A DNA stretch of 38,455 nucleotides. It comes from a virus. The notes below the pieces were generated by a model. It was not told the origin of the DNA. It made no database searches and worked only from the letters and a program-made list of their open reading frames with translations. The DNA is taken from positions 1-38,455 of IMG/VR virus record IMGVR_UViG_3300017781_000040, one strand, 5' to 3'. This document shows positions 10,509-28,778 of the stretch, piece by piece (within the stretch, counting starts at the first letter, position 1; every line of letters begins with the position of its first letter). Position numbers and translations under genes: made by a program.

Positions 10509-10687
10509 ACGACGATAAGCACACAGTAAGCTACACACCCCACGACTACCACAGTATGTGTCAGAAGTCAAAGGACAGGGTACGTAAGATGCAACAAATG
10601 GGAATGACTACGCCCCATGACCCAAAAGACAAGCCAGAGGACGTAGCCAAAGAGGACAGAGGTTACTCAATATTCTTCATGTCATAA
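10505..10687 (+). CDS. Small hypothetical protein (60 aa), last gene of the rightward block
   Basis: The ATG overlaps the preceding stop (ATGA). The product is polar and histidine/lysine-rich (NDDKHTVSYTPHDYHSMCQK) with no membrane segment or known motif, and ends FFMS. It is the last gene of the rightward transcription unit, and its stop codon overlaps that of the leftward nrdJ gene (6-base tail-to-tail overlap, 10682-10687). Functional guesses are not supported. The tight coupling to the ejection-protein gene argues that it is real. Confidence 0.6.
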   Translation: MNDDKHTVSYTPHDYHSMCQKSKDRVRKMQQMGMTTPHDPKDKPEDVAKEDRGYSIFFMS

Positions 10688-12553
10688 CTCACAGTTGTTC
10701 CCTGTGCAAGCCAGTTGTTGTGACCCCTCAGTCATATCGCTGGCCTCTTCTATATCCCACGATATTTCCTTTGGAAAGTCCTTGACAAGCTGGTTGTACG
10801 TCTTCTTGTCCACAGGCTCATAAGGTGCTTGCTGGTACGTGTGGTCTGAGTAGGGCAGGAAGCTAATCCCTGACACCTTATCAAACTTGTTGTACAACCA
10901 CTGTCCCACCTCCAGAAACTCATCGTCACGGTAGTAGCAAGTCATTGACGGCTTGTGTTCACACCACTCATCCTGGTATATCTCCCACAGATCCAACTGC
11001 TCCATAGCACCCATGTCTGAGGCTGTCACAGCGCCATCAGGAGACGCTATAGGGAAGCTGAATACCCTAGTACTGGGGGACATAACATCGTCCTCCACAG
11101 GGACACCAGCGGCCTCTAGGACAGCGCAAAGCGGGTCACGAGAGTCTGCCCTAACTCTGCGTATGTATTGAGCAGAATAACGAGGATGAATCCCACTAGC
11201 AGAATCAACCAACTGACTAACAGTGCCTGAAGGCTTAACAGCAGTGATAGCGGTAGATACGTTGATACCTAATCTATCAGCCCATACTTTGTTAGTCTTG
11301 ATTGCTTCTTGTCGCATGGTTCTGAGCCACTTTTTGAGTTCATTTTTGTCTCCTCTACCTGAGAGCGTTGGGTGGTCCATGATACCCGTTAGTGACACCC
11401 CTAGTAACGCCTCATCTTCTGTGTTAGCTCTCCAGATGCTTCTCAGGTATCTGAAGTCAGTGAGGGTAGATTGAAGAGTCCCAAGGATAGTCGCAACCCG
11501 GACCTTTCGCTTGAGGCTGTTGAGTGTATCTTGTGGCCTAACAACAACCTCTGATAAGTTACAGAACTGGTAGGGTCTGAGGATGATTTCACTGCACGGG
11601 TTAGTTCCAAAATCAAAGGTAGCATCTCTTCTGTCATTTCTTGCAGCTTGTTTTTGACTTGCCACTCTGCTAAAGACACCTCGTTCGCCAGATCGTGATT
11701 CATATAAGCTGGTCCATTCATTTAAAAATGCCTCAAAGTCTGGTTTCTCTGTGTAACACGCTGAGTTGTTCGCTAGACCACGCTGGGGATTATCTACCCA
11801 CCACTGTCCGTGCTTGCAACGTCGGAGTCTATCGTCTGTGAGGTTACTGAGGCTGATGAGGGCGCTTCTCCTGACTCCTCCGACGACGACGATTTGAGCA
11901 ATCTTGCAGCAAAGATCGTGGCACTCAATGGAGCTAAGTTTTCGTCCAGATGCTGCCTTAAAGAGTTCAACTGTAAACTTGAAGAGATCAACGAGAGGTT
12001 CTGGACCACTTGCACGACCTCCGAAAGTTTTAAGTGCGGCACCTGCAGGTCGTACTCTACTAATGTCCCACTGGGGAACTTGACCTGAATACAGCAGTGA
12101 TACCAGTTCCCTAAACGATTTCGCCCATCCGATCTTTGAATCCGCAACATTAATAACTGTATCGGTTGCATGAAACTCCTCCGCTACCTCCGGTAACTTC
12201 TGTACGTACTGTCGTTCTACTGAGTACCCCACACCTGTGCCACACATGAGCACGTACATCATCTCATCAAATGCTTTAGGGTGGTCAATAGGTAGGTAGC
12301 TACAGTTAAACCCTGCTACGTTGTCACGGTCCAACGCCTCTCCTGCGGTCATCAGTGCTCGCATAGAGGGCATTACGTCTAGGTCGTGTATAGACTTGAA
12401 TATCTCTGATACTTCAAAATCGTCTAGGCTCGCACGGTCTACCCAGTAGTTGACGTAACGGTTGACTGTTTCCTCCCACGTTTCCCTACGCTTTTCTTCT
12501 GGGTTGTACCTAGCGTACCGTGACTTGTGTATGTACTGTTGGTATGCGTCCAT
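10682..12553 (-). CDS. nrdJ: Adenosylcobalamin-dependent (class II, monomeric) ribonucleoside-triphosphate reductase (623 aa)
   Basis: This enzyme reduces ribonucleotides to deoxyribonucleotides using a cobalamin-generated thiyl radical, supplying dNTPs for phage replication. The cysteine pattern matches the Lactobacillus leichmannii RTPR type. C84 (GFNCSYLPID) is the N-terminal redox cysteine. C320 in NPCSEI is the thiyl position with E322 two residues on, and C331 (QFCNLSE) is 11 residues on, the same spacing as C408/C419 of RTPR. The C-terminal shuttle pair C616/C621 (CTGNNCEL) has the C-x4-C spacing. PSGTVSQLVDSASGIHPR lies in the phosphate-binding region. At 623 aa it is shorter than RTPR (about 740), so part of the allosteric or insertion region may be reduced. 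It is last in the leftward replication operon. A phage glutaredoxin (23691) could re-reduce it. No metallo-cofactor subunit gene is present, consistent with class II. Confidence 0.92.
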   Translation of the reverse strand: MDAYQQYIHKSRYARYNPEEKRRETWEETVNRYVNYWVDRASLDDFEVSEIFKSIHDLDVMPSMRALMTAGEALDRDNVAGFNCSYLPIDHPKAFDEMMYVLMCGTGVGYSVERQYVQKLPEVAEEFHATDTVINVADSKIGWAKSFRELVSLLYSGQVPQWDISRVRPAGAALKTFGGRASGPEPLVDLFKFTVELFKAASGRKLSSIECHDLCCKIAQIVVVGGVRRSALISLSNLTDDRLRRCKHGQWWVDNPQRGLANNSACYTEKPDFEAFLNEWTSLYESRSGERGVFSRVASQKQAARNDRRDATFDFGTNPCSEIILRPYQFCNLSEVVVRPQDTLNSLKRKVRVATILGTLQSTLTDFRYLRSIWRANTEDEALLGVSLTGIMDHPTLSGRGDKNELKKWLRTMRQEAIKTNKVWADRLGINVSTAITAVKPSGTVSQLVDSASGIHPRYSAQYIRRVRADSRDPLCAVLEAAGVPVEDDVMSPSTRVFSFPIASPDGAVTASDMGAMEQLDLWEIYQDEWCEHKPSMTCYYRDDEFLEVGQWLYNKFDKVSGISFLPYSDHTYQQAPYEPVDKKTYNQLVKDFPKEISWDIEEASDMTEGSQQLACTGNNCEL

Positions 12554-13143: not shown

Positions 13144-13309
13144 ATTCTTCTTCCTCTAGCTCCTCTTGAAATTCGTCAAGTCTGCGTATGAGTTTGTCTT
13201 CAAATCTGTCCAGTATTTCTTCTGATGAAATCTGTAAGGACTCCAGAAGATCGTCAGGATCATACAACCGCAACAGCTTCTCCTTAATTTCTTCTAGTGT
13301 CAGAGACAT
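13124..13309 (-). CDS. Small acidic helical protein (61 aa)
   Basis: I choose ATG 13309, which has AGGAG 10 bases upstream; a TTG two codons earlier (13315) is possible. The protein is almost entirely helical and very acidic. It begins MSLTLEEIKEKLLRLYDPDD and ends in a run of Glu residues (EELEEEEYAEEQW). The TLEEIKEKLLRLYDPDDLLE element looks like a conserved small phage protein I have seen in marine phages, of unknown role. It overlaps the end of the endonuclease gene by 26 bases and the DUF3310 gene by 20. A promoter-like sequence lies just upstream, inside the endonuclease gene. Confidence 0.65.
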   Translation of the reverse strand: MSLTLEEIKEKLLRLYDPDDLLESLQISSEEILDRFEDKLIRRLDEFQEELEEEEYAEEQW

Positions 13310-13694
13310 AATCAACCAACTCCTTAAGTGTATCTATATTATACCATAAAATTTCGTGTTTGTCACACCACTCAGCCATAGTAAGTTTGGTGCTTTTGTT
13401 TACTTTCTGGTTAGGCTTCATCAGTACAAAGATGAGTTCTTGCGTCTCTGGGAGACACTTAGACACTGCTCTATACTTCTGCGTGTCTCCTGCACGAAAG
13501 TATCCTTTGCACTCAATGAGGTACGATCTACCTCTGTACTCGTACACAAAGTCTGGTGTGTACTTTCGTTCAATCCTGTACGGTACTTGGAACGGTTCGT
13601 AGCTAAAGCCAAATGGTTGTAACTGAGTTGCGACATCTTTTTCAAACCCCGACCTAAAGTTACCGTGCTTGGATTTCCGTGACTTTCGGCTCAT
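13284..13694 (-). CDS. T7 endonuclease I-type Holliday junction resolvase (136 aa)
   Basis: The product resembles T7 gp3, which cuts branched DNA so that replicated concatemers can be packaged and which helps break down host DNA. Catalytic residues are in place: E18 (RSGFEKDVA), D48 (KYTPDFVY), and E61-x-K63 (YLIECKGYF). They correspond to E20, D55, E65 and K67 of T7 endonuclease I. A basic N-terminus (SRKSRKSKHGNF) fits DNA binding, and the length matches T7 gp3 (149 aa). It overlaps the upstream exonuclease gene by 35 bases and the downstream acidic gene by 26. It belongs to the leftward replication operon. Confidence 0.9.
   Translation of the reverse strand: MSRKSRKSKHGNFRSGFEKDVATQLQPFGFSYEPFQVPYRIERKYTPDFVYEYRGRSYLIECKGYFRAGDTQKYRAVSKCLPETQELIFVLMKPNQKVNKSTKLTMAEWCDKHEILWYNIDTLKELVDYVSDTRRN
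13338..13366 (-). promoter_or_regulatory. Putative internal sigma70 promoter within the endonuclease gene
   Basis: Read on the minus strand there is GTGACA (13361-13366), a 17-base spacer and TATAAT (13338-13343). The 14-base string TATGGTATAATATA around the -10 is identical to that of the strong rightward promoter at 22694. It would start a transcript about 20 bases upstream of the 61-aa acidic gene and give extra expression of the DUF3310-nrdJ part of the operon. The bases also encode ILWYNI of the endonuclease, so the match may be partly coincidental. Confidence 0.45.
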
Positions 13695-15057: not shown

Positions 15058-16704
15058 TCAGTGGGTATCAGCCCAAGTTGCTCCCACTTTGTACTCTCCG
15101 TCAAGGGGGCATCTGAGGTCAAATGATAGGCCAGCCGCCTTGATGCACTCAACTGCGAGCCAACCGTACTTCTCTGCTTGTTCTGTAGCCACCTCCGATT
15201 GTATTTCGTCATGTACGTTCCCTATAAACTTGTAGTCAATCTTGTGCTGAGTAGCGTAATCATCTAAGAGAACCAAAGCCCTCTTCATAATGATTGCACC
15301 AGCGGCCTGTAGTAGCGTGTTCAGTGCACTATGTTCTGATCTGACCCAGAGTTTTCTTCCGTCAAGTCCAACGAGATAACCTTTCCTAGCAGCTTGTCCA
15401 ACTCGTTCTCGTAGAGTTTCAAGAGAAGGTGTGTTTCGTAAAAAGCGCTCCCTAAGTTTGTTACCATCTTTAGCAGATCCTCCGACGATGCTTCCAATCT
15501 TTGCTGCTCCTGCTCCGTAGAGGAAAGCATATATGAAAGTCTTTGCCTGAGGTCTTGTTGAAAGCCCTGCAGCCTGTTGATTTCTGGTGTGAATGTCGTC
15601 TCTAAGCAAGACATCTGTAAACTCCTCATCGCCCATGTAGTGTGCGAGCATCCGTAGTTCTAGTCCACTAGCGTCAACACCCACTAGCCTCCGTCCTTCT
15701 GGTACAATCCAGCAGTCACGGCACTCTTTACCAAACTGTGAGTTAACTGAAGGAACCTGTGCCATGTTAGGTGTCTGGTGTGTCATGCGTCCTGTAACAG
15801 CACCGTTAGTTATTACTCTTCCGTGGACCCTGCCGTCCTCCTGTACGTGTTCTATCCACGACGATACTTGTGCGTAGCGCTTCTGTAGCAACAGGTACTC
15901 TAAGACCTGCACAGCCTCCGGTACATGTTTGTTCTCTGCCAGCGTTTTCTCGTCCACCTGCGGCCTGCCACTAGGCGTGAGTTCCGACCATACAGCACCC
16001 TTAGCTTCAAGTCGTTCAGCCACTTGCTGCCTTGAGCCGGGATTGAAGACCGTAACCTTATCCTTAAGGCGCTTGCCTGTCTTCTCAGACCACCTTTCCT
16101 CAACAATCGGTGGGAACACCCTCTGGAGTTCTTCCTCAATAGCATACATACTCTCCTTAAACTTGGCACACAGGATGTGGCACAGTCGCTGATCTAGTAG
16201 CCAACCGTTACGCTCCTGTCCCTGTATGACCCACTGTACCTCGTGTTCTAGATTAATGCTGTCCTGAGAAAACCCGTGTAGCTCCACCTGTAGCCGCTTG
16301 TACACCGCCTCAGTCAACTCTACGTCACGTATGCAGTAGTCAATCATCTGTGGTGTAAGCTGTGACCAATCCTCGTGGTCTCCCTTGGCGAAACCTAGGG
16401 TGTTTCCCCAGTTACGCAGAGAGTGTCCACCAGACCTGCTAGGGTCAGCTAGTCTAGAGAGGATTAGAGTGTCAGTGACCATGCTCCTGTCACAAGTAAA
16501 GTTCCAAAGACGCTCAAGTACAGGAACATCAAAACTAATTCCGTTGTGGAAAACAAACGTAGATTCTGCTTTACGTTGTACGTAATCCTTGAAATCTTGC
16601 TCATTACATATTACCTCCGATTCTCCGTTGTGTCGGCACACTGCACACCAGATGACACTAGCGTCCAGACCGTCTGTCTCTATGTCACAGAAGACTAGGT
16701 TCAA
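15058..16704 (-). CDS. polA: Family A DNA polymerase with 3'-5' exonuclease (548 aa)
   Basis: This is the replicative DNA polymerase of the phage. Exonuclease motifs: ExoI D7/E9 (FCDIETDG), ExoII D59 (NGISFDVP), ExoIII Y123/D127 (DYCIRDVE). Polymerase motifs: A with D344 (GVDASGLELR), B with R384, K388 and Y392 (RPQAKTFIYAFLYG), C with H498-D499-E500 (NVHDEIQSE). The residue equivalent to E. coli Pol I F762 is tyrosine (Y392), as in T7 (Y526). At 548 aa it is shorter than T7 gp5 (704), and I see no obvious long thioredoxin-binding loop, so processivity may come from another source. It overlaps the primase-helicase gene by 4 bases (ATGA) upstream. Confidence 0.97.
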   Translation of the reverse strand: MNLVFCDIETDGLDASVIWCAVCRHNGESEVICNEQDFKDYVQRKAESTFVFHNGISFDVPVLERLWNFTCDRSMVTDTLILSRLADPSRSGGHSLRNWGNTLGFAKGDHEDWSQLTPQMIDYCIRDVELTEAVYKRLQVELHGFSQDSINLEHEVQWVIQGQERNGWLLDQRLCHILCAKFKESMYAIEEELQRVFPPIVEERWSEKTGKRLKDKVTVFNPGSRQQVAERLEAKGAVWSELTPSGRPQVDEKTLAENKHVPEAVQVLEYLLLQKRYAQVSSWIEHVQEDGRVHGRVITNGAVTGRMTHQTPNMAQVPSVNSQFGKECRDCWIVPEGRRLVGVDASGLELRMLAHYMGDEEFTDVLLRDDIHTRNQQAAGLSTRPQAKTFIYAFLYGAGAAKIGSIVGGSAKDGNKLRERFLRNTPSLETLRERVGQAARKGYLVGLDGRKLWVRSEHSALNTLLQAAGAIIMKRALVLLDDYATQHKIDYKFIGNVHDEIQSEVATEQAEKYGWLAVECIKAAGLSFDLRCPLDGEYKVGATWADTH

Positions 16705-18317
16705 AACTCTGTCTCCGGCGGCGTAGGGTTAGCACACTCGTGGATACGTCCGGTAAACTTGTCGTACCGTAGCCAGCAGGCGGGGCCAGTTTCACCAGAG
16801 TAGCGATTCTTGAGTATTCTCACTGTCGTAGTGTTCCTGATGTCCTCATCTGGGTTTTGCTGGTCACGTTCCATACCTATGACAATATCAGACAACTGTG
16901 CGATGGACTGAGATCCACGCAAGTCCTGTAGACTGATGCGTCCACCGTCCTCGTGTGCTGTACCAGAGCTACGCCGTAGGTGCGACACTAGGAACAAAGT
17001 AATTCCTGTCTCTGCCACCAGTGTGCGTAGCTTTGTCATGATCTCATCTATAGCTTTTCGTTCGTCTCCGTTTTCTTGAGAAGAAACCACGATAGACAGG
17101 TGGTCAAGGATGATGTACCGACAGTCACAGGCTTTTGCCATGTGCCTGACTCTTGATAGTAACTCATCCGCTGAAGTTGACCCCCAGTGGTCAAAAAGAT
17201 AGTACCTTCCAGATCCCATCGTTGCTTCCCAGTGCGGTCTAAGCTCATCAACAGGTGTATCCTCTTCCAAGTGTAGTCGTCTAGATGATGCCACCGACAT
17301 AATTCCCAAAGCTGTTGTTGCGACGTCCTCCTCCAGTGCAAGTACACCGATGTTAGCGTCTGTGCGTTGGAGCAAGTCGTACTCAAGCTCTCTGATAAAC
17401 TGGGATTTTCCCATACCAGAACCGCTGGTGATAGTAACGAGTTCGTGCGGTCTATGTCCCCTTGTAATTGCATTTAGTCCATCCCACGGGTACGGTATGC
17501 TCTGTACCTGTCTTTTGTTTACTAGTGCGTCCCATGTCTCTGATCCAGCTATGATGCCGTCAGGCCGGTACACCTTTGCGTCCCACCAGTGCTGTATGAA
17601 CTCCTGCACTCTGTTGGACTTCAGCATGTCGCTGGCGTCCTTCATGGGTAACACACATATCTTTAGCTTGTTAGGACTGAACAAGTGTTTGACCTGATCT
17701 ATGGCTATCTCTCCCGCCTTATCCTGGTCAAAACACAGCACTACGTTATCGTAACCCTCAAGCCACTCTAGGTTCTTCTTGATCTCTCGTGCGGCACTAC
17801 TAGCGCCTGACCTGAGACTGACTACATCGTACCGCTGTCCGAACATTTCGTAGACAGCCATTGCATCTAGTTCACCCTCAGTTATCGTCAGGTACTTACC
17901 TGTACCACGGCACTGCTTCTGACCAAACAGACCTACGTTGGTCATGTTGCCAGAACACACAAACTGCTTGTTACTGACGTACCTCTGCTTTGCTCCTACT
18001 AACTCGCCTGTGTCCTTGTCAAAGTACGGGTAGTAGTGTGTAGCTATCTTACCGTCTGGTGCGTAGTCTACGGTAACCTGATACTTTTGTGCTGTTACCT
18101 TTGAGAGCCTCCTGTCGCTTATCTCAGCAACAACACCACCCATTCTCAGGTTAGACGTTGGTTGCACAGTTTCTTCCTCCTGTGGTGCTCCTGTCCCTTG
18201 TACGTGGTATCCACAATTAGGGGTGAAACAATGGCGGCCCCCGTCAGAGTAAACCGCCACGTTATCCCTACTTCCACACTTAGGACATTCCTCTTTGTAT
18301 AGGAAAGTAGGCTTCAC
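16701..18317 (-). CDS. Fused DNA primase-helicase, T7 gp4-like (538 aa)
   Basis: This protein makes RNA primers and unwinds DNA at the fork. An N-terminal zinc-binding domain has C11, C14, C30 and C35 (EECPKCGS, HCFTPNCGY). The TOPRIM primase core has E147 (TITEGELDAMAVYE) and D197/D199 (LCFDQDKAGE). After a linker, the DnaB/RecA-like helicase domain has Walker A GSGMGKS (299-305), a catalytic Glu region (LALEEDV), Walker B ending at D405 (YIILDHLSIV), and a motif with HLRRS and GSQSIAQLSD. The length matches T7 gp4 (566 aa). It lies directly downstream of the ssDNA-binding protein candidate and upstream of polA, the usual replisome order. It is transcribed from the promoter at 18746-18774. 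Confidence 0.95.
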   Translation of the reverse strand: MKPTFLYKEECPKCGSRDNVAVYSDGGRHCFTPNCGYHVQGTGAPQEEETVQPTSNLRMGGVVAEISDRRLSKVTAQKYQVTVDYAPDGKIATHYYPYFDKDTGELVGAKQRYVSNKQFVCSGNMTNVGLFGQKQCRGTGKYLTITEGELDAMAVYEMFGQRYDVVSLRSGASSAAREIKKNLEWLEGYDNVVLCFDQDKAGEIAIDQVKHLFSPNKLKICVLPMKDASDMLKSNRVQEFIQHWWDAKVYRPDGIIAGSETWDALVNKRQVQSIPYPWDGLNAITRGHRPHELVTITSGSGMGKSQFIRELEYDLLQRTDANIGVLALEEDVATTALGIMSVASSRRLHLEEDTPVDELRPHWEATMGSGRYYLFDHWGSTSADELLSRVRHMAKACDCRYIILDHLSIVVSSQENGDERKAIDEIMTKLRTLVAETGITLFLVSHLRRSSGTAHEDGGRISLQDLRGSQSIAQLSDIVIGMERDQQNPDEDIRNTTTVRILKNRYSGETGPACWLRYDKFTGRIHECANPTPPETEF

Positions 18318-19085: not shown

Positions 19086-19275
19086 CTGGATACCCTCCAA
19101 ATACTTGGTTGTATGCCTTGACTAGCTGATTGTAGCTCATGTCCCTGTACTTTTGACGCAACACAGTACGTGCTATGTTTAGTGTCTCAGCAAAGCCAAT
19201 GAAGCCTAGCTCGTACTCTGAAATATCCTGTATCATCTGTTCCTGTGACAAGTCTGGTTCTTTGTAGTCATCCAT
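19075..19275 (-). CDS. Hypothetical acidic protein (66 aa)
   Basis: ATG 19275 overlaps the TAA of the upstream gene by one base (TAATG), which decides the start over the longer frame to 19326. The product is helical and acidic at its N-terminus (MDDYKEPDLSQEQMIQDISE) with a second helix (LNIARTVLRQKYRDMSYNQL). No motif is recognised. It belongs to the tightly coupled series of small leftward early genes. Confidence 0.6.
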   Translation of the reverse strand: MDDYKEPDLSQEQMIQDISEYELGFIGFAETLNIARTVLRQKYRDMSYNQLVKAYNQVFGGYPDEM

Positions 19276-19748
19276 TATACTGCCTCCCTTCCGTACCACT
19301 TCATAGGTATACCTCGTGTGTCCCAATCGTCTGCCTTGTAGTTGTAGTATACCTGATAGCCCTGTACAGCGTCAACCCTCTTACACTCGTCTGGCATACA
19401 CTGTGGTGGATCAGTGAAACCACCATCAGGGATGGCGTTAGGAGGCCACAGGAGGCTCTGTGAGTGCTTTTGTATGGTCTTGTGTACCTTACCATAACGT
19501 CTGGTGTATTCGTCTCCTAGAGCCATCAGGTGCTTCCTGAGCCATGTGTAGTTTTTACGGTTAGCCCTAGCCCAGACAGCACTAGGGTGATTTTTGTGGG
19601 TGCTCTTGTACGCCACCTGTTCCCCGTCTAGCTCGTTGTGTGCTGTACTGAGTAGCTGTGCTGTCTCTAGTATCATTTTGACTACGTGACGATCACACTG
19701 GAGCCTAGCGGCCTCGTGTGGATCACTTGACAGGTAAAATATGTTCAT
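19275..19748 (-). CDS. Conserved phage protein of the 'MNIFYLSxDP...CDRHVVKMILE' type (157 aa)
   Basis: I choose ATG 19748, which overlaps the upstream stop as ATGA; this gives the conserved-looking start MNIFYLSSDPHEAARLQCDR. It is followed by HVVKMILETAQLLSTAHNEL, THKNHPSAVWARANRKNYTW and EYTRRYGKVHKT. I recall this sequence type as a conserved phage protein with several invariant His, Lys, Trp and Tyr residues, which suggests a nucleic-acid or nucleotide enzyme. I cannot name its activity. It sits among small early genes. Conserved polar residues (H in CDRHVVK, H in THKNHPS, W in AVWAR) are the obvious candidates for an active site. Confidence 0.75.
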   Translation of the reverse strand: MNIFYLSSDPHEAARLQCDRHVVKMILETAQLLSTAHNELDGEQVAYKSTHKNHPSAVWARANRKNYTWLRKHLMALGDEYTRRYGKVHKTIQKHSQSLLWPPNAIPDGGFTDPPQCMPDECKRVDAVQGYQVYYNYKADDWDTRGIPMKWYGREAV

Positions 19749-19966
19749 AACTCTGTACCCCATTCATCCGGTGAATACTTGTAAAACTTGTTCATCTGGT
19801 CCTCGTACGTGCAATTGTCGCATAGTCCCGTGTCAGTGTCTACAGCGTTCACAATCTCGTGGCAACCGTCGCAGACGTGGGTGTACTCTATTTCCCTCAG
19901 AGTCTCGTATGGTCCCGTGCGGTCGTGCCAGTGGCTGTAATCGTTTAGTACGTCGCTCTCGTTCAT
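19745..19966 (-). CDS. Small zinc-ribbon protein (73 aa)
   Basis: ATG 19966 overlaps the stop of a 30-codon membrane-protein gene (ATGA). The product has C-x2-C pairs VCDGCHE (about residue 32) and LCDNCTY (about residue 49), 17 residues apart, typical of a small zinc ribbon. It has an acidic N-terminus and an aromatic-rich C-terminus (NKFYKYSPDEWGTEL). It is one of two such zinc ribbons in the leftward block; a DNA- or RNA-polymerase-binding role is possible but not shown. Confidence 0.65.
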   Translation of the reverse strand: MNESDVLNDYSHWHDRTGPYETLREIEYTHVCDGCHEIVNAVDTDTGLCDNCTYEDQMNKFYKYSPDEWGTEL

Positions 19967-21812: not shown

Positions 21813-22112
21813 TTAACCCTCCAAGGTCAATTTGAATACGTTGATGGTGTCGGAGTTTACATGGTACGCAACCTGTACGCAACCCTCAAACACCTGTGCA
21901 ATTTTCTTTGACTCCAGATCAATCACACCGCCTTTGCTTGGCGTCACTTTACGCTTGCCATCTGCACAGCGTGAGAGGGTCACGTAACCCTCGTGAAACT
22001 CCACGTTGTACCGTGTACCGCCAGCCCATCCCAGAAACTCAAGTCCCTGTAGCCAAACCCGAGCGCCTTTCTTTGTTGGCGCTACAACTGTACGCCCTGC
22101 TTGTTTACACAT
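21813..22112 (-). CDS. First gene of the leftward early block, hypothetical (99 aa)
   Basis: I choose ATG 22112, which has AAGGAG about 9 bases upstream; the frame stays open to 22220 but those codons cover the leader and promoter area. The product begins with a basic segment (MCKQAGRTVVAPTKKGARVW) followed by a beta-rich body (YNVEFHEGYVTLSRC, VIDLESKKIAQVF). No motif is recognised. As the first gene downstream of the origin region it is likely to be the earliest leftward product; such phage proteins often redirect host functions, but that is only an inference. Confidence 0.65.
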   Translation of the reverse strand: MCKQAGRTVVAPTKKGARVWLQGLEFLGWAGGTRYNVEFHEGYVTLSRCADGKRKVTPSKGGVIDLESKKIAQVFEGCVQVAYHVNSDTINVFKLTLEG

Positions 22113-22178
22113 TGCTGTGTCTCCTTTATGGTGCGTTGGTTTAATCGTGGACACCGTAGCAGATGCCCACTGGTAACT

Positions 22179-22206
22179 ACTATACGCGAATCTCTGGGGA
22201 TGTACA
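22179..22206 (-). promoter_or_regulatory. Weak candidate promoter for the leftward early block
   Basis: On the minus strand, TGTACA (22201-22206), a 16-base spacer and TATAGT (22179-22184) lie about 70 bases upstream of the first leftward gene. The match is modest, but some promoter must serve this block and I see no better one in the region. AT-rich bases (aatattta) lie just upstream of the -35. Confidence 0.3.
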
Positions 22207-22378
22207 GTAAATATTACCACTGTTTAACTGTTGACTGCCCAACCTGTTGTATGCTTGCGGTGTGCCATAGGCACCTACACTGGTTCACACACTCGTGTCT
22301 ACGTGAATATTCACATGTTACATCTCCCCGTGTTGGCATGAGTTTTGCCTATGCAATAAGTGTGCCAACTCTGGAGCC

Positions 22379-22438
22379 TGTGGATAACTTATGTTGGCCC
22401 TGTGGATAACTCTGCGCCTGTGTGTAACCTGTGGATAA
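22379..22438 (+). promoter_or_regulatory. Cluster of DnaA boxes (three perfect, one degenerate)
   Basis: TGTGGATAA, the complement of the consensus DnaA box TTATCCACA, occurs at 22379-22387, 22401-22409 and 22430-22438, all in one orientation and each followed by C. A degenerate copy TGTGTGTAA lies at 22419-22427. Box starts are 22 and 29 bases apart. Four boxes within 60 bases next to AT-rich sequence are unlikely by chance and suggest binding of host DnaA. Confidence 0.8.
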
Positions 22439-22537
22439 CTTGGGGTGGGCCTCGTGTTGACACGGGGGGAGGGGATTGACTTGTGTTAATTATTGTTGTA
22501 CCTACCTCTGTACACCAAAAGGTTAAATTAGCTAAAA

Positions 22538-22579
22538 ATAGGGTAAAAACAGGTGTATTTAACTACTGTTTAACCCTAT
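22538..22579. repeat. Imperfect inverted repeat in the origin region
   Basis: The left arm ATAGGGTAAAAACAG (22538-22552) pairs with the right arm CTGTTTAACCCTAT (22566-22579). The ATAGGGT/ACCCTAT and AAACAG/CTGTTT parts match perfectly, with one extra base in the left arm. The 13-base centre is AT-rich. There is no U-run typical of a terminator. It may be a protein-binding dyad or part of the origin. Confidence 0.5.
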
Positions 22580-22670: not shown

Positions 22671-22699
22671 TTGACTTTTGAGTAAAAGTATGGTATAAT
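22671..22699 (+). promoter_or_regulatory. Strong sigma70 promoter of the rightward (packaging/structural) block
   Basis: TTGACT (22671-22676), a 17-base spacer and TATAAT (22694-22699) give a near-consensus promoter with predicted start near 22706 and a leader of about 135 bases to the first gene. The -35 lies in an imperfect dyad (TTGACTTTTGAGTAAA). The same promoter sequence, with a perfect dyad, recurs at 31100, which argues for a shared regulator or a phage-specific promoter class read by host polymerase. Confidence 0.85.
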
Positions 22700-22749: not shown

Positions 22750-22814
22750 AACTATTAATAGTTCGTATAGATCCCCTCTTATGTGACACCTAGATATGGG
22801 GACTCATGCGAACT
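22750..22814 (+). promoter_or_regulatory. Structured 5' leader with two mutually exclusive hairpins
   Basis: A perfect 14-base palindrome AACTATTAATAGTT (22750-22763) overlaps the left arm of a longer hairpin: AGTTCGTATAGATCCCC (22760-22776) can pair with GGGGACTCATGCGAACT (22798-22814) over 17 positions with two mismatches and two G-U pairs around a 21-base loop. The two cannot form together, which is the form of an attenuator or switch. The structure ends 26 bases before the first late ATG (22841), which has its own CAGGAGA ribosome-binding site outside it. No U-run follows. Confidence 0.45.
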
Positions 22815-22840
22815 AGCGTTAAACACAAGGAAACAGGAGA

Positions 22841-23293
22841 ATGTCAACTGAAAACGAGAGTGACTCTCAGACTGACACCCTAGAAGCCCAAGCAGCAGCT
22901 AGAAAAGAGATAAACCTACGTAAGAGGTCTAGGGGTAGACCAAAAAAGAAAGAGATATCAGCTAAATCTAAGGGTGGTAGAGGTGTCAGAGGCCGACCCA
23001 AGGGTGACGCAGCGATAATTAACGAGTACAAGGCTCGTATGTTAGCAAGTCCTAAGTCAGCAAAGGTCTTAGAGACCATATTTGATGCTGCTCTGGACCA
23101 CGACCACAAGAATCAAGCAGCAGCTTGGAAACTAGTAATGGACAGGGTACTACCTGTTGGTGCATTTGAGAGGGAGGTCACCAAAGATGGAGGCAGAAGT
23201 GCGATCCAGATTAATATCACTGGGGTTGGAAGCGCAACAGTTGATGATGGCTATCCAGAGAGTAGCACAATTGAGGGTGAACTCGTTGATTGA
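22841..23293 (+). CDS. Putative small terminase subunit with two AT-hooks (150 aa)
   Basis: The protein starts acidic, then carries two AT-hook motifs, RGRPKK (31-36) and RGRPKG (50-55), in a very basic region (LRKRSRGRPKKKE, KGGRGVRGRPKGD). Such motifs grip the minor groove of AT-rich DNA. The C-terminal half is helical (SAKVLETIFDAALDHDHKNQ, AAAWKLVMDRVLPVG), followed by a short beta end (SAIQINITGVG), a pattern I associate with small terminase-like proteins in marine podophages. It is the first gene after the strong late promoter, with endolysin, redox and large-terminase genes behind it. It may recognise the packaging site; a DNA-binding regulator is the alternative. Confidence 0.6.
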   Translation: MSTENESDSQTDTLEAQAAARKEINLRKRSRGRPKKKEISAKSKGGRGVRGRPKGDAAIINEYKARMLASPKSAKVLETIFDAALDHDHKNQAAAWKLVMDRVLPVGAFEREVTKDGGRSAIQINITGVGSATVDDGYPESSTIEGELVD

Positions 23294-24307: not shown

Positions 24308-25558
24308 TTGACAGACCTAAACGTACAACTGTTGCCGTGGCAGCAGGAAGTTTACTCTGACCCAACAAGGTTCAAGGTAGTAGCCGCTGGACGAAGGACA
24401 GGGAAGTCTCGTCTAGCAGCGTGGATGTTAATTATCAGCGCCCTACAGACAGACAAAGGGCAAGTTTTTTACGTTGCGCCCACACAGGGACAAGCCCGTG
24501 ACATCATGTGGCAGACCCTGATGGAGCTAGGACACCCTGTAATCTCAGGTTCTCACATCAACAACCTGCAGATCAAGCTGGTCAACGGGGCCACGATTAG
24601 TCTCAAAGGAGCCGATAGGCCAGAGACAATGCGTGGTGTGTCCTTGAAGTTTCTCGTGATGGACGAGTACGCAGACATGAAGCCTGACGTATGGGAGCAG
24701 ATCCTCCGTCCAGCACTAGCTGACCAAAAGGGTTCAGCGATGTTCATAGGTACGCCTATGGGACGTAATCACTTTTACGAATTGTACAAGTACGCAGAGT
24801 TAGGTGACGATGAGACTTACAGGGGCTGGCATTTCACCAGCTACGACAACCCAATCTTGGACCCGTCTGAAATCAACATGGCGAAGAAGTCAATGTCAAG
24901 TTACGCCTTCAGACAAGAGTTTATGGCCTCGTTTGAAGCCAGAGGCTCAGAGATGTTCAAAGAAGAGTGGGTCCAGTTTGGAGAAGAGCCAGACGAAGGA
25001 GACTACTACATCGCAGTTGACCTCGCTGGATTTGAGGACGTAAACAAGAAACGGACGAAGAACAGTAAACTTGATGAAACCGCAATCGCTGTTGTTAAAG
25101 TTGGTACTGATGGTTGGTACGTTGATAACATTATACATGGGAGGTGGGATCTTAACGAGACTGCCACCAAGATTTTTCAGGCCGTTAGAGACTACAGACC
25201 CCTCAGCGTTGGTATTGAACGAGGAATCGCAAAGCAAGCCGTGATGAGTCCTCTGATGGACCTCATGAAGCGCTACGGGCAGTTCTTCAGGGTAGAAGAG
25301 TTAACCCACGGTAACAAAAAGAAGACTGACAGGGTTATGTGGGCGCTACAGGGGCGATTTGAAAACAACTTTGTAACCCTAAAGAAAGGAGATTGGAACG
25401 CTAGGTTCTTGGACCAACTGTTCCAGTTTCCTGATGCCCTGACTCACGATGACTTGATTGACGCCTTAGCGTACATAGACCAAGTAGCTAAAGTAGCGTA
25501 CAGTTACGAATTTGAAATAGATGACCACGAAGTACTAGACGTAATAGCAGGATACTAA
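24308..25558 (+). CDS. terL: Terminase large subunit (416 aa)
   Basis: This is the ATP-driven DNA packaging motor and nuclease. Walker A is AAGRRTGKS (27-34), Walker B and the catalytic Glu are LKFLVMDEYAD (D119, E120), and the coupling-type motif is FIGTPMGR. The RNase H-like nuclease domain follows with D238 in YIAVDLAGFED, a central acidic segment (VGIERGIAKQ) and DDLIDALAYI near the end. TTG 24308 is taken as the start (MTDLNVQLLPWQQEVYSD) because no ATG lies before the Walker A motif. It is shorter than T7 gp19 (about 586 aa), nearer to HK97/SPP1-type lengths. Confidence 0.95.
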   Translation: MTDLNVQLLPWQQEVYSDPTRFKVVAAGRRTGKSRLAAWMLIISALQTDKGQVFYVAPTQGQARDIMWQTLMELGHPVISGSHINNLQIKLVNGATISLKGADRPETMRGVSLKFLVMDEYADMKPDVWEQILRPALADQKGSAMFIGTPMGRNHFYELYKYAELGDDETYRGWHFTSYDNPILDPSEINMAKKSMSSYAFRQEFMASFEARGSEMFKEEWVQFGEEPDEGDYYIAVDLAGFEDVNKKRTKNSKLDETAIAVVKVGTDGWYVDNIIHGRWDLNETATKIFQAVRDYRPLSVGIERGIAKQAVMSPLMDLMKRYGQFFRVEELTHGNKKKTDRVMWALQGRFENNFVTLKKGDWNARFLDQLFQFPDALTHDDLIDALAYIDQVAKVAYSYEFEIDDHEVLDVIAGY

Positions 25559-27638: not shown

Positions 27639-28778
27639 ATGTCTGAGTTAGTTGTTGCAGCGGCGTTAGCTAAAATTGCTACAGAACTAGGATCAATTAA
27701 AGGAGATCCCGGACCGACAGGCGATAAAGGCCCAAAAGGAGAGGCAGGGGCTAAAGGGGACAAAGGCCCAGCCGGTCCTAAAGGCGAAAGAGGGGCGCAA
27801 GGTCTTGAAGGCAAAAAAGGAGACACTGGTCTACAAGGAAAAAGTGGCGCTAGTGTTTCAAAAATAGAAAGCGACAAAATTGATGGCAGTCTAACCTTTA
27901 ACTTATCAGACGGCACCTCTCAAACTGTTTCGTTGCCACTAGCTAAGGTTGAAAAAGGCAACGGCAAAGGAAGTAACATTGTTTTACACCGTGGTGCTAC
28001 TTCAGTTAGTGATTTAACTGACGTGGCTACAGGTGGTATTTCTAATGGTCAAGCTCTTATTTGGAACACAACAAATAACAGATTTGAGCCGGGGTCGGTA
28101 TCTGGAGGAGGCGGTGGAGGTGGTAGCGGTATTGCTTTAACAGACCTTTCTGTAGGGGCAGAAGCCTCAGCAAGTGGTGACGGAGCTATTGCGTACAACA
28201 ACAGTAGTGGGGTTTTTACTTATACGCCGCCTGATCTGTCAAGTTATTTAACAAGCTACACAGAATCAAACAACCTTACGTCAGCAGTAACGTGGGCTAA
28301 TGTGCCTAATGCTAACATTACACAAGCGTCTGTTACCCAGCATCAAGCGGCCTTATCAATTACAAAAAGCCAAGTTAGCGATTTTGGGTCATACCTTTCT
28401 AACTTATCTGAAGACTCAACGCCTCAGCTAGGAGGAGACCTTGACCTCAACGGTAACGATCTTGTTACTACGAGCAACGCAGACATTGATTTAGACCCTA
28501 ACGGATCAGGTGTTGCTGTGTTTAAGGGCAACGCTACCCGTGGCGCAGGGCAGTTTAAACTTAACTGCGAAAATAATAGTCACGGCATTACAATTAAAGG
28601 GCCGCCACACAGTGCTGCTGCGTCGTACACGTTAACACTTCCCAATGATGATGGTAGTGCAGATCAAGTTCTCAAAACAGACGGGTCAGGAACCTTAAGC
28701 TGGGTGGCGCAGAGCGGCGGTGGTAGCGGGATTAATACAGGCAAAGCCATCGTAATGGCTATGGTTTTTGGAGGATAA
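27639..28778 (+). CDS. Collagen-like fibre protein (379 aa)
   Basis: After a short helical start (MSELVVAAALAKIATELGSI), residues 22-69 form 16 consecutive Gly-X-Y triplets (GDPGPTGDKGPKGEAGAKGD and onward), a collagen-type triple helix. This leads into a beta-rich region with a glycine spacer (SGGGGGGGSG, about residues 154-163) and a C-terminal domain like those of phage fibre proteins (DIDLDPNGSGVAVFKGNA, then YTLTLPNDDGSADQVLKTDG). It is probably a trimeric virion fibre or spike. It is unusual to find such a gene directly after the portal and before the scaffold and capsid. It starts 3 bases after the portal stop, so it is in the same transcription unit. Confidence 0.85.
   Translation: MSELVVAAALAKIATELGSIKGDPGPTGDKGPKGEAGAKGDKGPAGPKGERGAQGLEGKKGDTGLQGKSGASVSKIESDKIDGSLTFNLSDGTSQTVSLPLAKVEKGNGKGSNIVLHRGATSVSDLTDVATGGISNGQALIWNTTNNRFEPGSVSGGGGGGGSGIALTDLSVGAEASASGDGAIAYNNSSGVFTYTPPDLSSYLTSYTESNNLTSAVTWANVPNANITQASVTQHQAALSITKSQVSDFGSYLSNLSEDSTPQLGGDLDLNGNDLVTTSNADIDLDPNGSGVAVFKGNATRGAGQFKLNCENNSHGITIKGPPHSAAASYTLTLPNDDGSADQVLKTDGSGTLSWVAQSGGGSGINTGKAIVMAMVFGG

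Follow-up and report, generated by a model that had tools for sequence, protein, structure and literature searches.

A DnaA-box array in a T7-type phage appears to be a docking cassette for host proteins at the genome ends rather than an ordinary replication origin

Phages T7, T3 and their relatives carry tandem arrays of short repeats (SRL and SRR) within or adjoining the direct terminal repeat (DTR) of their genomes. What such arrays do at T7-type genome ends is, to our knowledge, still an open question. Clusters of DnaA boxes are familiar from bacterial oriC with its basal unwinding system (BUS), and from datA, a DnaA-titration locus that uses an IHF-type site. Binding sites of a host cell-cycle regulator are concentrated in the DTRs of phiCbK-like phages, where the host protein CtrA was proposed to act on transcription from the DTR sites and DnaA sites had no positional bias (PMC9437464). 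The locus described here resembles the phiCbK-like phages in this concentration of host regulator sites; however, in those phages the regulator is CtrA, the DTRs are very large and contain genes, and binding was demonstrated experimentally (PMC9437464), whereas the sites in our locus are predicted. We found no description of DnaA boxes in phage terminal repeats in the literature, of which subscription papers were incompletely covered.

The window, i.e. the whole stretch of DNA analysed, is a 38,455-bp IMG/VR virus record. A preliminary description had noted three perfect copies of TGTGGATAA in one orientation within 60 bases of a non-coding region, accompanied by a degenerate copy. Exact search confirmed all of this: the three copies occupy 22379-22387, 22401-22409 and 22430-22438 on the + strand, the extended repeat unit is CCTGTGGATAACT, present three times, and the non-coding region is a 620-bp divergent gap, with leftward early genes that end at 22220 on one side and a rightward gene at 22841 on the other. 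The features of the array are as follows.

22379 to 22387, - strand: DnaA box 1, TTATCCACA, exact match
22401 to 22409, - strand: DnaA box 2, TTATCCACA, exact match
22419 to 22427, - strand: degenerate DnaA box with two mismatches (TGTGTGTAA on the + strand), 11 bp before box 3, at a spacing peak (11 bp) of 45 arrays
22430 to 22438, - strand: DnaA box 3, TTATCCACA, exact match

An equal density of the word elsewhere in the genome had been named as an observation that would refute the candidate origin; no further exact copy of TGTGGATAA was found on either strand of the whole window. Shuffled sequences contained 0.34 copies on average, and a simple base-composition model predicts about 4e-8 triplets within 60 bp. 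Together with the 572-fold enrichment of boxes across relatives described below, these values rule out the explanation that a common word clustered by chance, which we regard as practically impossible.

The window encodes a T7-type replication set (primase-helicase, family A polymerase and endonuclease I), as well as a portal of the SU10/P22 kind and a capsid of the Phage_capsid_2 family. The genes and signals relevant to the array are listed below.

13284 to 13694, - strand: T7 endonuclease I homologue
15058 to 16704, - strand: family A DNA polymerase
16701 to 18317, - strand: T7-like primase-helicase
21813 to 22220, - strand: first leftward (early) gene, without a family match
22671 to 22699, + strand: near-perfect sigma70 promoter, TTGACT-17-TATAAT, conserved in relatives
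22755 to 22830, + strand: 5' leader hairpin upstream of the small-terminase candidate, fold z-score -3.0
22841 to 23293, + strand: candidate small terminase (TerS), proposed from its position and two AT-hook-like motifs, with no family match
24308 to 25558, + strand: terminase large subunit (TerL)

The RNA hairpin GUUCGUAUAGAUCCCC...GGGGACUCAUGCGAAC (22759-22815) in the leader of the TerS candidate is similar in close relatives and has no Rfam match; searches returned no Rfam family, no tRNA and no phage DnaA homologue. The window also encodes a class II (B12-dependent) ribonucleotide reductase (10682-12553), a pyrimidine-dimer glycosylase-like protein (19275-19763) and a collagen-repeat protein (27639-28778). 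A single-subunit RNA polymerase, whose presence is the hallmark of Autographiviridae, was not detected in the window or in five relatives (G001, G003, G015, G018 and G019) by a search that was positive in the phages phiEap-1 and ZK1, which bears out the earlier statement that this phage lacks its own RNA polymerase. The phage has hundreds of environmental relatives and no close cultured one: TerL matches had below 45% identity and below 80% coverage, and the best primase match (47%) was to Pelagibacter phage HTVC115P. Two small contigs from GTDB genomes (a Sphingobacteriales MAG and a Verrucomicrobiales MAG), considered for host assignment, were possibly mis-binned and were set aside.

The position of the genome ends was approached through complete relatives. 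G015 (38,605 bp) has an exact DTR of 257 bp, with its first base at CCTACACTGG, and G026 (36,338 bp), a clade member from the box scan described below, has an exact DTR of 221 bp with seven boxes per copy; the two DTRs are bounded at homologous points. In G001 (40,151 bp), approximately 295 bp starting at CCTACACTGG are common to both ends and 99% identical. A contig with three boxes (L034) begins at the same base as G001 and G015, i.e. at the left edge CCTACACTGG, and 5 of approximately 63 contigs start within about 20 bp of this edge, where 0.25 are expected. A T7-type DTR, with the same sequence at both ends, was thus seen directly in G015 and G026 (exact) and G001 (99%), and in the window it was assigned from homology of the edges. 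Since both window edges are homologous to the DTR edges of relatives, the DTR of the window is placed at 22274-22497, and the short direct-repeat array therefore lies inside it:

22274 to 22497, no strand: inferred DTR, 224 bp, by homology to the DTRs of G015, G026 and G001
22274 to 22293, no strand: conserved left edge CCTACACTGGTTCACACACT, with the presumed terminase cut at 22273/22274
22463 to 22474, no strand: G-rich block CGGGGGGAGGGG at the inner right DTR edge, conserved in relatives
22498 to 22560, no strand: conserved AT-rich element immediately outside the DTR

Both ends of the virion genome would then carry 22274-22497. In the window contig the linear genome is circularly permuted and its ends are not displayed, the outcome expected of an assembler that collapses the terminal repeat. 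Another copy of the box array, diverged in sequence, lies at 34.1 kb of G026 (L432:92-213), about 2 kb inside the right end of that genome.

The expectation that the boxes would be conserved at the same syntenic place in relatives was borne out in part of the clade: some relatives carry boxes at a distance of 1.3-2.5 kb upstream of the gene for the large terminase. When 2.9 million viral contigs were scanned without bias for pairs of boxes separated by 5-35 bp, at least 28 clade members (TerL identity 52 to 89%) were present among the 120 stretches listed, and in nearly all clade members among the matches listed the boxes were near a small-terminase homologue. We then counted boxes in the DTR interiors, hereafter cassettes, of unselected relatives, delimited by sequence anchors (automated ORF-gap detection was unreliable). 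The 58 cassettes (19.5 kb) contained 40 exact boxes, as compared with 2 in the remaining 699 kb of these loci, a 572-fold enrichment; only about one fifth of these relatives have two or more boxes. Altogether, 45 distinct arrays comprised 180 exact box copies and 50 copies with one mismatch, and 34 of the 50 mismatches were at the N and W positions of TTWTNCACA, the E. coli DnaA consensus in which these two are the loose positions (PMC5835720). The spacing of boxes in these arrays peaked at 11-12, 20-23, 29 and 32-34 bp. Boxes in the clade are predominantly oriented one way (62 vs 11), a bias that may stem from tandem duplication or from an oriented function such as initiation. The enrichment in cassettes, the degeneracy pattern and the spacing support the identification of these sites, predicted from sequence, as DnaA boxes. 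Clustered DnaA boxes on both strands were also observed in a 130-kb record in which no clade gene was detected (L110, IMGVR 2706796291), possibly with a different use.

The cassettes were also enriched in a second type of site. The sigma54 -24/-12 element TGGCAC-N5-TTGC occurred 40 times, in 17 of the 58 cassettes, vs 4 times in 699 kb (approximately 320-fold enrichment), so that the DTR concentrates the consensus of a host regulator for DnaA (40 vs 2) as well as for sigma54-type sites (40 vs 4). The same element with altered spacings (N3, N4, N6 and N7) was not found in the cassettes, indicating that the spacing is specific. Sites of this type often form facing pairs, with a 54-bp period in two cassettes (L223 and L228), and one facing pair (22334-22367) is located beside the DnaA boxes of the window:

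22334 to 22348, + strand: sigma54-type -24/-12 site TGGCATGAGTTTTGC
22353 to 22367, - strand: facing sigma54-type site TGGCACACTTATTGC

Facing pairs could also be a palindromic operator, and we therefore regard sigma54 as a putative ligand. Arrays of sigma54-type sites inside the DTR were observed in the cassettes L066, L075, L077, L082, L223, L228 and L255. In the L023 cassette the same slot of the DTR contains GAGAATCGTTATC (twice) and AAATCATTATC, which are similar to Fur 6-1-6 boxes, and other repeat arrays (AAACAATC; TTGCATTTTGC; GTTTTGGAACC) occupy this slot in the L021, L080 and L058 cassettes. Sites of other host regulators (CRP, FNR, IHF, CtrA, ArgR, MetJ and others) were not enriched in the cassettes, and LexA-type sites, which were weakly enriched, were rejected, as the reversed control was enriched more.

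Comparison of close relatives revealed that the interior of the DTR has a history different from that of its surroundings. Contigs L010 and L011 share 96-97% identity in TerL and in the right flank, vs 65% in the cassette, while L010 and the window are 95% identical in the cassette vs 79% in the right flank. On a TerL tree (a quick tree with several open forks), having two or more boxes is a state that was gained or lost at least 14 times. As these comparisons read, the DTR interior in this clade is an exchangeable cassette of predicted DnaA boxes, sigma54-type sites or other repeats, which moves between lineages.

Box arrays were also found in the DTRs of three cultured T7/SP6-type phages. 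Each DTR copy contains 5 exact boxes in Enterobacter phage phiEap-1 (KT321314, DTR of 195 bp), 6 in Klebsiella phage ZK1 (OK625527, 292 bp) and 4 in Shigella phage A7 (MK685668, 177 bp), with 1, 1 and 0 boxes elsewhere, respectively. Many of the steps between these boxes are 21-22 bp, and the boxes are unannotated in the phage records. The same 9-mer is the repeat unit in Studiervirinae, Molineuxvirinae and the window clade. All three phages encode an RNA polymerase according to their annotation, which for phiEap-1 and ZK1 was also detected by our search. Since they were found via sequence similarity, they give no frequency. The DTRs of T7, T3 and SP6, taken as controls, contain no DnaA box, indicating that a DTR can do without the array.

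We consider a host-DnaA landing array that serves genome ends or concatemer junctions to be the best reading of these observations, and a reasonably probable one. The three boxes would be host DnaA sites within the 224-bp DTR of a T7-type linear genome, in which fixed edges (the presumed terminase cuts) would enclose an exchangeable interior in which DNA-binding proteins of the host find their sites. On boxes stepped by approximately 11 bp and largely co-oriented, DnaA from the host would assemble wherever a genome end or a concatemer junction occurs, and the array would take the position of the short-repeat arrays of T7. Its likeliest job would be linked to the ends, which it might shield or hold, or it might serve as a roadblock or landmark while concatemers are processed. 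We infer this DnaA occupancy and end-related function from sequence comparison; the role at ends or concatemer junctions is favoured for two reasons: the array stays with the DTR even where lineages differ in their transcription systems, and the DTR slot accepts sites for different host proteins. A broader proposal, for which our confidence is somewhat short of even, is that T7-type podoviruses have in their DTRs exchangeable cassettes on which DNA-binding machines of the host dock. Arrays of DnaA boxes and of sigma54-type sites would share one slot, would have arisen or moved repeatedly, and would give host-protein complexes at ends and concatemer junctions for end protection, concatemer processing or replication start.

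Origin activity, capture of DnaA and local control of transcription are possible alternative roles. According to the preliminary description, the boxes mark a candidate DnaA-dependent origin, which would compensate for the missing RNA polymerase; DnaA bound to the array would open nearby DNA, where the phage primase-helicase and polymerase would enter. This proposal is consistent with the presence of three or more perfect, helically phased and mostly co-oriented boxes, with the conserved AT-rich element and the strong promoter approximately 60-240 bp to the right of the array, and with the RNA polymerase not being found in the clade. The GC-skew minimum is indeed located here, at about 22.0-22.5 kb, but it coincides with the switch of the coding strand, and skew therefore cannot separate replication from transcription. 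The AT-rich flanks noted earlier hold only beyond the G-rich block, outside the DTR, where the AT-rich tract of the window begins, on the side opposite that of E. coli R1; the AT content of the 60 bp adjoining the array is 0.50 and 0.47, vs 0.54 for the genome. Similarly, the two sides of 18 arrays had a mean AT content of 0.48 and 0.44, vs a genome mean of 0.55. Within approximately 16 bp on the TGTG side, no unwinding element or DnaA-trios were found (AT 0.48 vs 0.55, 18 arrays), and an unwinding element was missing on both sides; the DnaA-trio score was 0 in the window, whereas the E. coli oriC control (sequence verified) was positive in the same script. Moreover, phages of the T7/SP6 type that encode an RNA polymerase have the same array in their DTRs, so the boxes cannot be put down to a missing RNA polymerase, and close relatives carry sigma54-type or other repeats instead of the array, which argues against a DnaA-marked internal origin. 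Given the GC-richer flanks, the lack of DnaA-trios and the confounded skew, origin activity at the array is possible, without specific support, and we deem it unlikely.

We also hold it unlikely that the array is a sponge that titrates host DnaA in the manner of datA and so keeps the host from starting further replication rounds while the phage genomes multiply. Plasmid-borne boxes titrate DnaA, and E. coli has approximately 307 consensus DnaA boxes (PMC5835720), a number that 3 boxes in each of about 100 phage genomes would roughly match; the perfect boxes, 2-10 per repeat, are of the high-affinity type. However, titration leaves both the confinement to the DTR and the sigma54-type sites in the same slot of close relatives unexplained, and the IHF-type site WATCAANNNNTTR, of the kind used by datA, was absent from all 58 cassettes. 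Control of transcription, in which host DnaA or sigma54 polymerase bound at the DTR tunes the flanking divergent early and late promoters, has a precedent in the CtrA sites that alphaproteobacterial phages carry in their DTRs (PMC9437464), and the array has the leftward early operon on one side and, on the other, the near-perfect sigma70 promoter at 22671. Yet the boxes are about 230 bp from this promoter, no clear early promoter abuts them, and array type and copy number vary freely among close relatives; we find this role quite unlikely. The repeats might instead be bound by a phage protein such as the small terminase, with a coincidental match to the DnaA consensus. Arrays adjoin the terminase genes at the packaging site, and unrelated repeats occupy the same place in other relatives, but such a coincidence appears very improbable, as the exact consensus recurs in unrelated lineages (Studiervirinae, Molineuxvirinae and the window clade) and mismatches concentrate on the known loose positions.

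The array thus looks like a host-protein docking cassette at genome ends, not an ordinary replication origin. It resembles bacterial oriC and the BUS in having clustered DnaA boxes in one non-coding gap, and differs from them in lacking an adjacent unwinding element or DnaA-trios and in its predicted placement at genome ends. Clustered DnaA boxes, which origin-prediction software reads as origins, may therefore instead mark phage terminal repeats. With datA it shares a strong DnaA-box cluster away from oriC; unlike datA, it lies in a phage DTR without an IHF-type site, and titration by it is putative. The array is also like the SRL and SRR arrays of T7, T3 and relatives, in which tandem short repeats are likewise in or next to a podovirus DTR with terminase genes beside one end and early genes at the other. 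The units of T7 and T3 are of the CCTAAAG type, with no DnaA box, and CCTAAAG is absent from 22274-22497 of the window, whereas the unit here is formed by an exact DnaA box, for which units of the sigma54 type can stand in. Perfect DnaA boxes in several lineages, and DnaA or sigma54-type sites in the marine clade, suggest host proteins as candidate ligands of such arrays, a question that becomes testable in the cultured phages phiEap-1, A7 and ZK1. Although these members of Autographiviridae encode an RNA polymerase and are distant relatives, they are like the window clade in carrying an array of exact TGTGGATAA in the DTR, in one orientation and almost nowhere else.
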